This document shows positions 20,955-26,814 of a DNA stretch of 64,000 bases, piece after piece (positions within the stretch are counted from its first letter, which is position 1; the number at the start of each line of letters is the position of its first letter). Below the pieces are notes generated by a model. The model was not told where the DNA came from. It searched no databases and worked only from the letters and a program-made list of their open reading frames with translations. A program made the position numbers and the translations under genes. The DNA lies in assembly GCF_900176345.1 (NCBI RefSeq), contig NZ_FWXU01000010.1:1-64000 (forward strand). The letters run 5' to 3'. Source of the stretch: Rhizobium sp. RU36D (lineage in GTDB: Bacteria; Pseudomonadota; Alphaproteobacteria; Rhizobiales; Rhizobiaceae).

Positions 20955-21569
20955 ATGACCCGGTCCGTGTTCCGTTTCCTCACCCGCCAATCCGACAAGC
21001 CGGAGATCGAAAGCGGCGCACATCTGCTGCGGCTGGCGCGCTATTCCGACTTCGAGCAATGGCACAAGCTTCGCTATGAAAGCCGCAGCTTTCTGCAGCC
21101 CTGGGAGCCGACCTGGCGCGCGGACGAGCTGACGGAACGGGCGTTTCGCTCCAGGGTCATCCGGGCGGAACAGGAATATCATTCCGGCCTGTCGCTGCAG
21201 CTTCTCCTGTTTTCCCGGCCGGAAAAACTGCTGCTGGGTGGCATGACGATCGGCCTGATCCGGCGCGGTGCGGCGCAATGCTGCATGATCGGCTACTGGA
21301 TGGGCGAGCGGCATTCAGGCCAAGGCCATATGTTTGCCGCACTTCAGCTGGCAATACCCTATATCTTCGGGAAGCTGCAGTTGCACCGGATTGAGGCTGC
21401 CTGTATTCCAGACAACGACAGAAGTATCCGGCTGCTCGAAAAAGCTGGCTTTGAGCGGGAAGGTATCTTGCGGGAATATTTGAAAATCAACGGTCAGTGG
21501 CGCGACCATGTCATGTTTTCGCGGCTGGCCGACAACATGCCTGCTCCCAAGTTCACGGATTACCTATGA
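20955..21569 (+). CDS. GNAT N-acetyltransferase, RimJ-like
   Basis: The product is 204 aa, a GCN5-type acetyltransferase of the RimJ/RimL group that uses acetyl-CoA on protein N termini or small amines. Supporting segments are LRLARYSDFEQWHKLRYESR, the acetyl-CoA loop region IGYWMGERHSGQGHMFAALQ, and the RimJ signature HRIEAACIPDNDRSIRLLEK followed by AGFEREGILREYLKING. The stop overlaps the start of the GGDEF-EAL gene (ATGA at 21566-21569). Confidence 0.88.
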   Translation: MTRSVFRFLTRQSDKPEIESGAHLLRLARYSDFEQWHKLRYESRSFLQPWEPTWRADELTERAFRSRVIRAEQEYHSGLSLQLLLFSRPEKLLLGGMTIGLIRRGAAQCCMIGYWMGERHSGQGHMFAALQLAIPYIFGKLQLHRIEAACIPDNDRSIRLLEKAGFEREGILREYLKINGQWRDHVMFSRLADNMPAPKFTDYL

Positions 21570-24505
21570 CCGGGCCGCGCACAGAGCCATGGCTGACCCG
21601 GCTGACGCCGGCGGGACGATTCCGCGCGTTGCTGCTCTGCCTGTCGATGCTGGCGGCCTGGATGATGCTGCAGCCGATGGCAGTACTTGCCGCCGAACCG
21701 GTGAAGATCTCTCGCGAGGATACGGCCGTCGATCTTTCCAAGACGGTCGAGATCTACAGCAACCAGGGTGAGGCCTTCCAGGTCTCGACCGCAGCCGGCG
21801 CTGACGGCATTCGCCGACGCATCGAGGTTCGCTCCAGCGATGCGAAGCACCAGGGCGACTGGGCGGTTTTCTCACTCGCCAATGTCTCGGAAGAGCAGCT
21901 AGAGCGCGTGATCGTCGCCCCGCATTTCCGGCTTGCCAGCTCGCAACTGTTCTGGCCCGATCTCGGCTCGCAGCGCATCTATGCGATTACCCCGTCGGAA
22001 GGGTTTGCGCTGGATCGCCAGCCGAGCGAAGAGGCCGACGTGTTCCGCATCACGCTGAACCCGGGCGCCGTCGTCACCTTCGTCGCGGAACTGGCAACCC
22101 CGCATCTGCCACAGATCTATCTGTGGGAGCCGGATGCCTATAAGGACACGATCAACGCTTTCACGCTCTATCGCGGCATTGTGCTCGGCATTGCCGGTCT
22201 GCTTGCGGTGTTCTTGACGATCCTGTTCGTGGTCAAGGGCACCTCAATGCTGCCGGCGGCAGCGGCTCTGGCCTGGGCGGTTCTGGCCTATATCTGCGTG
22301 GATTTCGGCTTCATCGAAAAGCTGATCTCGATTGCCTCAAGTGATGAGCGCATATGGCGGGCGAGCGTGGAGGTGGCGCTGGCCTCCAGCCTTGTCATCT
22401 TCCTGTTCACCTATCTCAGCCTCAATCGTTGGCATGCGCATCTGGGCTATGCCACCTTCGCCTGGATCCTCGGCCTCGGCCTCTTGTTCGGCGTCGCGAT
22501 CTACGATCCATCGATCGCCTCGGGCATTGCGCGCCTGTCATTCGCGCTGACGGCGACCGTGGGCGTGATCCTGATCGTCTATCTCGGCATGCATCGCTAT
22601 GACCGGGCCATCCTGCTGGTGCCGACCTGGGCGCTGTTCATCGTCTGGCTGTTCGGCGGCTGGCTGACGATCACGGGCCGCCTCGACAACGACATCATCC
22701 AGCCGGCACTCGGTGGTGGCCTCGTGCTGATCGTGCTGCTGATCGGCTTCACCGTCATGCAGCACGCCTTTGCCGGCGGCGCCTATCAGCAGGGCCTGTT
22801 CTCCGACCTTGAACGCCAGTCGCTGGCGTTGACGGGATCGGGCGATACGGTGTGGGACTGGGACGTGGCGCGTGACCGCGTGGTGACCAGCCCCGACATT
22901 TCGGTGCGCCTCGGCCTTGCCGCCGGCACCCTGCACGGCCCGGCGCGCAACTGGCTGCCGCGCCTGCACCCCGATGACCGCGACCGTTTCCGCGCCACGC
23001 TCGACGTGCTGCTGGAGCATCGCAAAGGCCGGCTCAACCACGAATTCCGCATTCGTGCCGAAGACGGGCACTTCCACTGGCTGCATATCCGCGCCCGGCC
23101 GGTTCTCGGCTCCAATGGCGAGGTGATCCGCTGCGTCGGCACGATCTTCGACGTGACGGAGCAGAAGAACTCCATCGACCGGCTGCTGCAGGACGCGATG
23201 CATGACAACCTGACGGGCCTGCCCAACCGGGAAGTCTTTCTCGACCGCCTGCAATCCGTGCTGACGCTGGCGGCGGGCGGCGACAGCGTGCGGCCGACCG
23301 TGATGGCGATCGATATCGACCGCTACAAGCAGGTGAACGATTCGCTCGGCATTGCCGCCGGCGACAATATCCTGATCGCGCTGACCCGCCGCCTGCGGCG
23401 TCTGCTGAAGCCGCAGGATACGCTGGCGCGGCTATCGGGCGATCTGTTCGGCCTTATCCTCGTTTCAGAGCGGGATCCGGCCAAGGTGGCGGATTTTGCC
23501 GATGCGATCTCCAAAGCCATCATGGTGCCGATCAATTTCGCCAATCGCGAGATCATCCTGACAGCCTCGATCGGCCTCTCCACCTTTGTCGACCAGCAGG
23601 AAAGCGCGCCGAGCCTGCTGTCGGATGCCGAGCTTGCCATGTATCGCGCCAAGCGGGCGGGTGGGAACCGGGTGGAACCTTTCCGCCCGGCCTTCCGCAG
23701 CAACGGCACGGACCGGCTGCAGCTGGAAACCGATCTCCGCCGCGCGCTGGACCGCAAGGAACTCTCCATGGTCTACCAGCCGATCATGCGGCTGGCAGAT
23801 GGCAGCGTGGCGGGTTTCGAAGCCCTGATGCGCTGGGACCACCCCAAGCGCGGCAGCATTCCACCATCCGAATTCATCCCGATTGCGGAACTCTCCGACC
23901 TTATCGAGCCGCTCGGCATGTTCGCGCTGGAACGCGCCAGCACGGAACTGATGGACTGGGAGCGGCAGATCGTCGACCTGCCGATCTTCGTGTCGGTCAA
24001 CCTGTCGAGCTCGCAGCTTCTCAACAACGAGCTCTACAACGACATCAGGGCGCTGCTTGCCAAGACCCAATGCTCGCCGGCGCGCATCAAGCTGGAGCTC
24101 ACCGAATCCGTGGTGATGGAAAATCCGGAGCAGGCACGGCTAGTTCTCGCCAAGCTCAAGGAGACCGGCATCAGCCTGGCGCTGGATGATTTCGGCACCG
24201 GCTATTCCTCGCTCGCCTATCTCACCCGCTTCCCCTTCGATACGATCAAGCTCGACAAGGCGCTGGTCTGCGACCGCAGCGAAAAGCGCCCCATCCTGTT
24301 GCGCTCGATCATCACGATGGCCCGCGACCTTGACATGCAGGTGGTGGCAGAGGGTGTGGAGACCGAAGCGGACGCTGCCGAACTCGCCGAAATGGGCTGC
24401 CAGCTCGGCCAGAGCTACCTCTTCGGCGCCCCGATCGGCGCCGATTCGGTTCAGCGACTGCTGAAGGAGCGCTTCCCGCAGGTGAAAAAGGCCGTGGGGG
24501 CTTGA
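21566..24505 (+). CDS. 7TM-PAS-degenerate GGDEF-EAL cyclic-di-GMP phosphodiesterase
   Basis: The product is 979 aa. A signal peptide (residues 17-45) leads into a periplasmic 7TMR-DISM-type sensor (to about 190), seven membrane helices (190-400), a PAS domain (430-540), a GGDEF domain (560-710) and an EAL domain (725-970). The GGDEF signature reads RLSGDLFGL, so cyclase activity is unlikely. The EAL domain keeps EALMRWDHP, ELTESVV, LDDFGTGYSS, IKLDK and AEGVETEAD, so it should hydrolyse c-di-GMP, perhaps with GTP binding at the degenerate domain. The start is coupled to the GNAT gene. Confidence 0.93.
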   Translation: MTGPRTEPWLTRLTPAGRFRALLLCLSMLAAWMMLQPMAVLAAEPVKISREDTAVDLSKTVEIYSNQGEAFQVSTAAGADGIRRRIEVRSSDAKHQGDWAVFSLANVSEEQLERVIVAPHFRLASSQLFWPDLGSQRIYAITPSEGFALDRQPSEEADVFRITLNPGAVVTFVAELATPHLPQIYLWEPDAYKDTINAFTLYRGIVLGIAGLLAVFLTILFVVKGTSMLPAAAALAWAVLAYICVDFGFIEKLISIASSDERIWRASVEVALASSLVIFLFTYLSLNRWHAHLGYATFAWILGLGLLFGVAIYDPSIASGIARLSFALTATVGVILIVYLGMHRYDRAILLVPTWALFIVWLFGGWLTITGRLDNDIIQPALGGGLVLIVLLIGFTVMQHAFAGGAYQQGLFSDLERQSLALTGSGDTVWDWDVARDRVVTSPDISVRLGLAAGTLHGPARNWLPRLHPDDRDRFRATLDVLLEHRKGRLNHEFRIRAEDGHFHWLHIRARPVLGSNGEVIRCVGTIFDVTEQKNSIDRLLQDAMHDNLTGLPNREVFLDRLQSVLTLAAGGDSVRPTVMAIDIDRYKQVNDSLGIAAGDNILIALTRRLRRLLKPQDTLARLSGDLFGLILVSERDPAKVADFADAISKAIMVPINFANREIILTASIGLSTFVDQQESAPSLLSDAELAMYRAKRAGGNRVEPFRPAFRSNGTDRLQLETDLRRALDRKELSMVYQPIMRLADGSVAGFEALMRWDHPKRGSIPPSEFIPIAELSDLIEPLGMFALERASTELMDWERQIVDLPIFVSVNLSSSQLLNNELYNDIRALLAKTQCSPARIKLELTESVVMENPEQARLVLAKLKETGISLALDDFGTGYSSLAYLTRFPFDTIKLDKALVCDRSEKRPILLRSIITMARDLDMQVVAEGVETEADAAELAEMGCQLGQSYLFGAPIGADSVQRLLKERFPQVKKAVGA

Positions 24506-24539: not shown

Positions 24540-25193
24540 CTACTTTTGCCCATGCATGGGAACCTGACACCGGGCCTTCAGGCCAAGAGTCTTGTTTGCG
24601 ATAATCTGTGCGTCCCAATAGCTCATGCTGTGGGTTTCCGGTTCCCACAGCACGGGGTCCATACAGGTTGCGCGGGGATCAACCCCCAGGCATCCCTCTG
24701 CGTCATATCGTTTCAGCATCTCCGAACTCCACGTTTGTTCGAGAAACTGCTGCTTGAACTCTTGAGTCTCTAGTCTTTCCTTGGAACTCTGGATTTTGCG
24801 AACGTCCATGGCGAACGCAATGTCGGCGACAAACTGCTGCCAATGCTTCGTCGCAGGGTTACTCTCAATTTCGGACATATCGTTTGCTGTCACCTGAGGC
24901 CATGGTGGCCAAAGACCGAGAAAACCTATCGCCAAAAGCATGTTCTGCCCGGCAACGGGTGACCCTTCCTTCACGTGGGGCCAGATTGCTTCCCACGTTT
25001 CGTCACATTTCTTCGCTTGGAAAAGCGCAACTACCCTCGCCTGCTCAGCCTCGTCGTAGCGATCTGCGTGAACAGGTTCTGCTATAGCGTCGGACCGTAT
25101 CAGAAAAATGCATGCGGCCACGAGCGGCAGAATGCACCGACGAAGACGACCGGCAACCGAATTATTCCATCCATACTTACGCTGCAAAATCAT
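24540..25193 (-). CDS. Secreted four-cysteine protein, copy A (unrecognised family)
   Basis: The product is about 217 aa. A basic N terminus and hydrophobic segment (LRRCILPLVAACIFLIRSDA) predict export. The mature part starts YDEAEQARVVALFQAKKCDE and has four Cys placed as in copy B (AKKC, EGCLGVDPRATC, ARCQVPMHG), so two disulfides are possible. The helical CDETWEAIWPHVKEGSPVAG stretch resembles a Sel1/TPR unit. The start at 25193 has GAGG 5 bp upstream. It follows a remnant of yqgE and is a diverged paralogue of the gene at 25353-26039. Confidence 0.7.
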   Translation of the reverse strand: MILQRKYGWNNSVAGRLRRCILPLVAACIFLIRSDAIAEPVHADRYDEAEQARVVALFQAKKCDETWEAIWPHVKEGSPVAGQNMLLAIGFLGLWPPWPQVTANDMSEIESNPATKHWQQFVADIAFAMDVRKIQSSKERLETQEFKQQFLEQTWSSEMLKRYDAEGCLGVDPRATCMDPVLWEPETHSMSYWDAQIIANKTLGLKARCQVPMHGQK

Positions 25194-25218
25194 CTGCGCC
25201 TCAAGCTTTATGCGGGCT

Positions 25219-25347
25219 TCACGCGTGCCCGTCATCCATGGACAGCATGGCAGGGCTCACACCCATCAGCGCCAGCACGCGGGCTTGTTTGGCCTCAAGC
25301 GCGGCGCCAAAGATCAGGTCTTCGCTGGCCGCGCAGTCGGGCCAGCC
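25219..25347 (-). pseudogene. Duplicated 3' fragment of yqgE
   Basis: The 42 codons before the stop at 25219 translate as [13 protein letters not shown]..., ending [18 protein letters not shown], and match 33 of 42 residues of the C terminus of the intact YqgE encoded at 26050-26655. The frame and the stop codon are kept. The fragment begins right after the stop of secreted-protein copy B and ends 25 bp before the start of copy A, which places it as the junction of a tandem duplication with an 831-bp period. Confidence 0.85.
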
Positions 25348-25352
25348 ACCAA

Positions 25353-26039
25353 CTAACGGTCGGTTGCCCCTTCGCTTCCGCTGAGATCGTCATCATTCAT
25401 CTTGTCCCGATACGCATGCATCGGCTCTACGCATTTCGAAACGATCCCATTCTCCGCGTTTTTTGAAAGTTCCGCGTCCCAATCCCTAAGGCTGCGTATT
25501 TCAGGAAACCATTTGGCGGCGTCCCAACAGGAATCTGCCGCTTGAGGGCCAAAACAGCCTGCGGCTTCGTAGCGCCCAATGGCATCAGCACCCCAGCGCT
25601 CACGCAGGAAATCATGCCTCAACTGCCGAATGTCCTGAAAATACCGACTGATATTCCGGCCATCAATCGCAAATGCAACGTCGGTAAGGAAATACATCAA
25701 TTCCCTCGCTGCAGGATCATTTCGCCACTCATCGACGTCCTCGGTCTTGGGAAGGGCCATGGGCGGCGTCAAGTCGATATAGGGGAGCCCGGCAACGAGC
25801 TGCCCTCCGGCAATTGCCGAGCCATCAACCACATGCCCCCACAGGACTTTCCAGGCAGCCTCGCATTGTCCACTTGCAACGAGGGAAGACACCCGCTCCA
25901 TCTCTGCCTCATCGTAGCTGTCGCGTTTGGCTTCCTCTGCTGATGCAGCGCAAAACAAAACAATTACCAAGGTCGATGCGCAGACGGACGTAAGTATCGA
26001 ACGCTGTGTTCGGATCCATTCGCTTGTTCGCGCTTGCAT
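25353..26039 (-). CDS. Secreted four-cysteine protein, copy B (unrecognised family)
   Basis: The product is about 228 aa. A signal peptide (ILTSVCASTLVIVLFCAASA) is followed by YDEAEMERVSSLVASGQCEA. It shares with copy A the order C-x2-AW, a tryptophan-rich helix (AWKVLWGHVVDGSAIAGGQL), DVAFAIDGRNI, RYEAAGCFGPQAADSC and a terminal KCVEPMHAY. The last residues are acidic (NDDDLSGSEG). The start at 26039 has GAGG 8 bp upstream. It lies 10 bp after yqgE on the same strand and is probably co-transcribed. Function is unknown. Confidence 0.72.
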   Translation of the reverse strand: MQARTSEWIRTQRSILTSVCASTLVIVLFCAASAEEAKRDSYDEAEMERVSSLVASGQCEAAWKVLWGHVVDGSAIAGGQLVAGLPYIDLTPPMALPKTEDVDEWRNDPAARELMYFLTDVAFAIDGRNISRYFQDIRQLRHDFLRERWGADAIGRYEAAGCFGPQAADSCWDAAKWFPEIRSLRDWDAELSKNAENGIVSKCVEPMHAYRDKMNDDDLSGSEGATDR

Positions 26040-26049
26040 CCTTGCAGCC

Positions 26050-26655
26050 TCACGCGTGCCCGGCATCCATGGACAGCATGGCGGGGCTCACACCCATCAG
26101 CGCCAGCGCGCGGTCGTATTTAGCGTCGAGCGCGGTGTCGAAGATCAGGTCTTCGCTGGCGGCGCAGTTGAGCCAGCCATTGTTGGAGATTTCGTTTTCC
26201 AGCTGGCCCGGTCCCCAGCCGGCATAGCCCAGCAGCATGGTGGCGCGGCGGGGGCCGCGGCCGTCGGAGATGGCCCTGACGATATCGAGCGTGGCGGTGA
26301 GCGAGATGTCGTCGCTGACCGGGATCGAGGAGCCGCCGATATAGTCATCCGTATGCAGCACGAAACCGCGGCCGCTTTCCACCGGGCCGCCGGCCTGGAT
26401 CGGAAACTCACGGGTGTGCTTCGGCAGCATGATCACATCGTTCTTGTCGGCGAGTTCGAGATGCAGCAGCACCTCCGGGAAGGTCACGGATTGCGGCCGG
26501 TTGATGATGAAGCCCATGGCGCCGGCATCCGAATGGGCGCAGATATAGACAACGGAACGGGCGAAATTGCTATCGGCCATTCCGGGCATGGCAATGAGGA
26601 ACTGTCCATCCAGGAAGCCGCGTTCGCGTTCCTTCTTGAGCGTAGAAAAAGCCAT
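26050..26655 (-). CDS. YqgE/AlgH family protein
   Basis: The product is 201 aa and is a typical UPF0301/AlgH protein: [40 protein letters not shown], and the later [15 protein letters not shown] and [16 protein letters not shown]. Members are widespread but their biochemical role is not settled. The ATG at 26655 or the GTG at 26658 both follow a GAGG. Its 3' 129 bp are duplicated at 25219-25347. Confidence 0.92.
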
Positions 26656-26814
26656 CACGCTTCCACCTCATATGTGTCACCGCGTCCCTGCGGCTTTTCA
26701 GGTATTGTCCCCGTCAACGAATGTGGGGCATAGACTCATATCAATCAACTGAAAATGATGAGCAGGGCGAATCCGAGGCTGGTTCATCCACGAGCCATGA
26801 ATTATGGGAAGGGC

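Follow-up and report, generated by a model that had tools for sequence, protein, structure and literature searches.

Predicted orphan immunity genes and a duplicated yqgE tail suggest gene displacement at a housekeeping gene in Rhizobium sp. RU36D

The gap downstream of the housekeeping gene yqgE in Rhizobium sp. RU36D holds two divergent genes for predicted secreted proteins, copies A and B, separated by a second copy of the yqgE 3' end. We propose that this locus is most likely a two-gene orphan immunity stack that arose by displacement behind yqgE, with the function of the two genes predicted from the linkage of their relatives to toxin genes. The locus sits on a 182,706-base contig (NZ_FWXU01000010.1), the first 64,000 nucleotides of which are the stretch analyzed here, referred to as the window.

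Read along the minus strand, yqgE is followed by copy B, the yqgE 3' fragment and copy A, and then by a convergent GGDEF-EAL gene on the plus strand. The anchor gene, yqgE/algH (DUF179; 26050..26658, minus strand), is intact, encodes 202 aa and matches both Pfam PF02622 (6.5e-49) and NCBIfam NF001268 (5.8e-92). Its own 3' end, the functional copy of the repeated sequence, spans 26047..26179 on the same strand (direct repeat D1). Copy B (25353..26039, minus strand) and copy A (24540..25193, minus strand) are open frames, homologous to each other, that are predicted to encode secreted, orphan immunity-like proteins. The likely start of copy B is the ATG at 26039, in an open frame that runs from 26066, and that of copy A is the ATG at 25193, in an open frame that runs from 25235; judged by eye, both have a signal-peptide-like N-terminal stretch. 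Between them lies the putatively displaced yqgE 3' fragment (25219..25350, minus strand), found by repeat search, blastn and tail alignment, which covers codons 160-202 and the stop. The far border is formed by the GGDEF-EAL gene (21497..24505, plus strand; Pfam EAL and GGDEF), whose coordinates are those of a mechanical open frame with a true start possibly further in. The original prediction had given this gene order with a spacing of 831, and both are confirmed by the direct repeat and the open frames.

The repeat search placed 25216-25348 and 26047-26179 in one long direct repeat family of 133 nt with 88% identity and a start-to-start spacing of 831, and a blastn comparison of yqgE with its own downstream DNA returned 88.5% identity over 130 nt (E 9.7e-45), far above chance. 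Over the last 42 codons and the stop, 15 of 129 nt differ between the fragment and the working tail; the fragment remains in frame, retains its stop codon and matches 33 of the 42 C-terminal residues, as had been predicted. Its homology begins at 25350, directly past the copy B stop codon at 25353-25355 (minus strand), in line with the earlier placement of its start. The nucleotide-level comparison that the original prediction proposed recovered the 133-nt tail repeat; the repeat stops a few bases beyond the yqgE stop, and homology outside the tail is weak. Of all tails compared, that of the window yqgE is the nearest to the fragment (114 of 129 nt), and the best of 62 tails from relatives reaches only 79.8%. 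Taken together, these comparisons support the identification of the fragment as a duplicated yqgE tail, and its 15 differences would speak against an assembly artefact as the source of the repeat.

Divergence between the two tails is low, with a dN of 0.11, a dS of 0.19 and identity at 15 of 19 four-fold sites that encode the same residue. Comparison of the window tail with the same stretch in relatives gave dS values of at least 0.30, with a median of 0.89 (60 of 62 relatives computable). In raw differences to the window tail, the tail of one relative, G039, is nearly as close as the fragment (16 and 15, respectively), because most of the changes that separate the two window tails fall on the fragment branch. 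Three-point branch lengths against the 62 relatives assigned a mean of 11.8 changes to the fragment against 3.2 to the working tail, making the fragment branch about four times as long, and at the 43 tail sites that are invariant in all 62 relatives the fragment carries five changes and the working tail none. The fragment branch is the longer one against each of the 62 relatives, which indicates that the fragment split off late and has been decaying since. By codon position its differences number 3, 5 and 7, a distribution that does not differ significantly from that of the relatives' tails (p 0.28). Thirteen of the 15 differences are found within the first 71 nt of the fragment (p 0.011), and within 25219-25347 the half adjoining copy A is almost unchanged. 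Local gene conversion, or a leader function for copy A, may perhaps account for this uneven distribution. When the yqgE tail was tested for mosaic structure, three comparisons gave p 0.04-0.15, at most a suggestive result.

The two secreted-protein genes are far more divergent. In the protein alignment, 76 of 233 aligned positions are identical (33%), and the nucleotide identity is 0.498 (49.8%). No dS could be computed, as synonymous sites are saturated, and only 5 of the 32 four-fold sites encoding the same residue are identical. The original prediction held that the secreted proteins had diverged far more than the tail, and the saturation of A and B against a tail dS of 0.19 bears this out. 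On the same evidence the copying of the tail looks recent and the separation of A from B ancient, a consequence that the original prediction did not draw. A single tandem duplication of the tail and its neighboring gene fails to explain this difference, since the fragment should then match the synonymous divergence of A and B. The composition of the two genes also appears foreign relative to the flanking genes, with a GC3 of 0.59 in A and 0.57 in B against 0.81 in yqgE and 0.82 in the GGDEF-EAL gene. Two maximum-likelihood trees did not recover A and B as sisters and placed an Agrobacterium plasmid gene among the slot genes, a placement that carries a long-branch warning. Forcing A and B into one clade was not rejected (p-AU 0.204), and by identity the two copies are mutually nearest at 33%, other members reaching 27% or less to B. 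No donor genome was found.

Across the genus, what lies between yqgE and the GGDEF-EAL gene differs from genome to genome, so that this gap is a variable slot. Each of the 63 genus genomes searched contains yqgE, and the fetched stretch reached the GGDEF-EAL border in 59 of them, falling short in four. The gap measures 140 bp or less in 22 of the 63 genomes, holds a LysE gene without a secreted-protein gene of the A/B family (family X) or MazEF in 18 (some with extra genes), and holds a DMT transporter with an HTH gene in 12. MazEF with LysE was found in two genomes, and MazEF alone, an antitoxin-like gene with LysE, and the two X genes of the window were each found in one. A single X gene is present, with LysE, in two of the 62 other genus genomes (G044 and G038), such that the yqgE-secreted gene order expected by the original prediction does occur in relatives. 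Pfam confirmed PemK/MazF, MazE and LysE in one representative apiece. In G062 (locus L051), a MazE/AbrB antitoxin-like match without a MazF match lies between yqgE and LysE and is perhaps a decayed module. In another genus, yqgE is split over two overlapping frames (L108 and L113; G119:C1:1826176-1826777), likely by a frameshift or sequencing error. Our literature search found no report of yqgE as an insertion hotspot, and one on Hint domains, type I secretion and immunity turned up a single review, on Neisseria.

Among the 63 genomes, a second yqgE tail piece was found only in the window genome and in G040, by blastn inside the fetched stretches behind yqgE, some of which are short. The order in G040 is yqgE, a MazEF-like pair, a 204-nt copy of the yqgE tail (95.6% identity) and LysE, with the tail copy located 781-984 nt past the yqgE stop (L073, G040:C134). 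This genome is 86% complete and the tail copy lies on a contig of 5,998 bp, C134. Eight of the nine differences between the G040 tails fall at third codon positions (p 0.001), as would be expected if both had evolved in functional yqgE and two working alleles had later come together. The MazEF-like pair is unrelated to A and B and occurs once in the slot, and a tail copy behind a single-copy pair is not expected from a duplication of the tail with its neighbor. The displaced tail of G040 represents an event independent of the one in the window. The original prediction of one old unequal duplication of the tail and the adjoining gene is thus retained in part: the fragment is a copied yqgE tail, but a single duplication event agrees neither with the saturation of A and B against the low tail dS nor with G040.

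Family X was traced further to predict a function for A and B. With copy B as the query, family members turned up in 3 of 63 genus genomes, among them that of the window, and the four genus copies are mutually 26-36% identical, each lying behind a yqgE stop, which for copy A is that of the fragment. Outside the genus there were six credible homologues: one on an Agrobacterium plasmid (the sole match among 72,556 records), four in a sample of 394 family genomes (G210, G248, G391 and G443) and one among 385 class genomes (G777). Four Cys residues are invariant across eight aligned members. In four of these six, the next gene downstream of X, in the same orientation, encodes an HExxH metallopeptidase domain of the VgrG2b type; the four are the plasmid, G210, where the domain stands alone, G443, where it lies early in a very long open frame, and G777. 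With PDB 6h56, the effector domain of VgrG2b, the G210 domain gives a match at E 3.8e-21. On the plasmid (L116 3038-11320) the domain forms the start of a Hint-domain protein of 2,760 aa, whose gene adjoins type I secretion genes. The open frame that carries the domain in G443 is 3,968 aa long. G248 and G391, which belong to one genus and have X proteins 78% identical, showed no metallopeptidase in the flanks examined. A metallopeptidase profile matched 7 of the 394 family genomes, and X lies beside the metallopeptidase in only two of these seven, G210 and G443, both of which were already in the query.

From this linkage, family X is probably an immunity family, and A and B would probably neutralize a cell-killing enzyme of a rival. 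The window genome yielded no VgrG2b-type metallopeptidase (best E 0.28 in one search, no match in the other) and no TssB/VipA in a search whose control matched one of 14 genomes, that of E. coli; A and B therefore look like orphan immunity genes. A genus-wide metallopeptidase search with a single distant query was empty, a result that says nothing alone. The X gene is absent from a Sphingomonas locus annotated 'vgr related protein'. Comparison of X with five neighbor genes of plasmid-borne metallopeptidases, two of them annotated as immunity lipoproteins, gave noise-level scores, and the metallopeptidase neighbor genes of G307 and G223 showed no resemblance to it. No relatives of A were found in phages, nor of the four-member profile in viral contigs. 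Pfam returned no family above cut-off; its one sub-threshold match, DUF6074 (E 0.16), was to A, and B had none. NCBIfam had no match for either, and a PDB search with the four-member profile returned only noise (best E 1.8). Structure prediction for B, with only A and B as input, gave a poor model (mean pLDDT 45.8). PADLOC matches to copy A alone, JetA3 (E 0.0036) and PDC-S02 (E 0.035), are weak and were judged to be chance. Profile matches in G080, G295, G781, G643 and G604 were dropped as Sel1-like or spurious on reading the open frames, and a planctomycete locus (L036), which matched only over query residues 109-172 and showed no metallopeptidase, was not used.

As a whole, these observations are best explained by the addition of copy B and a tail by displacement at a yqgE anchor, with A and B as immunity genes without their toxins, a reading we favor with moderate confidence. 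In this model, the gap downstream of yqgE would act as an insertion slot. Incoming DNA bearing a yqgE 3' end and an accessory gene would recombine into the resident yqgE by homology, while its other end would be joined to the resident sequence within the yqgE tail or shortly past it. This would keep yqgE whole, place the new gene next to it, and push the old tail and the old neighbor downstream; B would be the more recent arrival, and A with the tail fragment the displaced older resident. The two proteins would act in the periplasm as immunity proteins from a single, rapidly evolving family. Each would match a different zinc metallopeptidase toxin of the VgrG2b type made by other bacteria, and both would have been retained without the toxins as protection. 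Observed here are the anatomy, the mismatch in divergence, the variability of the slot, the second case in G040 and the linkage of X to metallopeptidase genes elsewhere; from these we infer in what order and by which kind of recombination the locus arose, and that its proteins confer immunity.

A close rival to displacement is a tandem duplication of the tail with one gene, followed by replacement of one gene copy with a divergent allele. This would produce the same final anatomy and the same mismatch in divergence, and the two tails would supply the flanking homology for the swap; it nevertheless takes two events where one suffices, and G040 presents the one-event form, so we consider it unlikely. 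It also seems improbable that A and B are ordinary Sel1-like secreted proteins of no assigned role, with an incidental linkage to metallopeptidases. The weak profile matches outside the family do include a Sel1-like protein, as judged by eye, and neither copy reaches a Pfam or NCBIfam cut-off, but at four loci the X gene immediately precedes the metallopeptidase in the same orientation, even though the metallopeptidase profile matches so few family genomes. We give little credence to an old unequal tandem duplication after which A and B diverged very fast and gene conversion from yqgE kept the tail alike. The mutual proximity of A and B by identity, the A+B clade that was not rejected, and the crowding of tail differences into the first half of the fragment are consistent with it. 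Against it are the saturated synonymous sites of A and B beside the tail dS of 0.19, as well as the G040 tail, displaced without a duplicated neighbor in the slot; moreover, frequent conversion would erase both the fragment's fourfold longer branch and the five changes at invariant sites, all of which belong to the fragment. Integration of a small mobile element at a specific site in the 3' end of yqgE, for which the duplicated tail would have served as the attachment site, would fit the layout of a gene with its 3' end, cargo and a duplicated 3' end but is highly improbable, as no integrase-like gene was seen by eye among the slot open frames, the repeats are unequal in length (about 130 and 204 nt) and the cargoes of the window and G040 are unrelated.

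If displacement at yqgE did build this locus, immunity arrays formed in this way would not be limited to toxin clusters, a conserved housekeeping gene could be a homology anchor, and the duplicated tail would be a readable and datable scar of the event. As a candidate immunity family, X would cover VgrG2b-type metallopeptidases of alphaproteobacteria, among them the one in the very large Hint-domain protein whose gene neighbors those for type I secretion, and such protection would be open to a bacterium without a T6SS. More tentatively, and with some doubt on our part, the yqgE 3' end may be an integrase-free acquisition site, anchored on a housekeeping gene, through which the genus gathers stand-alone defence cargo, both orphan genes of a new metallopeptidase-immunity family and MazEF-like modules, and leaves displaced tails as scars.

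The acquired interbacterial defence (AID) clusters of Bacteroidales are linked to a recombinase. In contrast, no recombinase was seen by eye among the open frames of the yqgE slot. The likeness to AID clusters lies in orphan immunity genes that are kept without toxins, which in our case is a prediction. Orphan immunity genes and immunity clusters are reported at the vgrG loci of agrobacteria (PMC8546570), whereas the A/B array sits behind yqgE.

A second comparison is with the VgrG2bC-ter-PA0261 (Tpe-Tpi) pairs. VgrG2b is described as a periplasmic antibacterial toxin, and its immunity protein as requiring a signal peptide and being helped by disulfide formation (PMC6899460). Similarly, X has an export signal, judged by eye, and four cysteines conserved in the eight aligned members, and its members elsewhere adjoin the same metallopeptidase domain (6h56), as seen at four of six family loci outside the genus and not at A and B themselves. 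The X gene differs from these pairs in lying upstream of the toxin gene, and X showed no sequence similarity to the metallopeptidase neighbors compared, two of which are annotated as immunity lipoproteins.

The closest parallel is with the T6SS orphan immunity arrays of Vibrio cholerae. In the model proposed by Kirchberger et al., a conserved sequence serves as the anchor for one end of the arriving DNA, the other end is attached through illegitimate recombination, and the old 3' end and immunity gene are pushed downstream (PMC5361080). The anchor described there lies in a T6SS effector cluster (PMC5361080), whereas here it would be yqgE, with no effector in the slot and no TssB/VipA found in the genome. 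Three hallmarks of displacement arrays can be compared. For a non-local origin, the saturated divergence and foreign-looking composition of A and B point to one, yet an A+B clade is not rejected and no donor genome was found. Divergent genes without a cognate effector are represented by two divergent genes in a genome where no metallopeptidase was found, their immunity role being predicted. A displaced 3' remnant left by the gene that precedes the insertion point is found here as the yqgE tail fragment, yqgE itself not being an effector gene. In its stacked predicted immunity genes, the displaced 3' end of an upstream gene and the proposed homology-anchored illegitimate recombination, the yqgE locus resembles the Vibrio arrays (PMC5361080).
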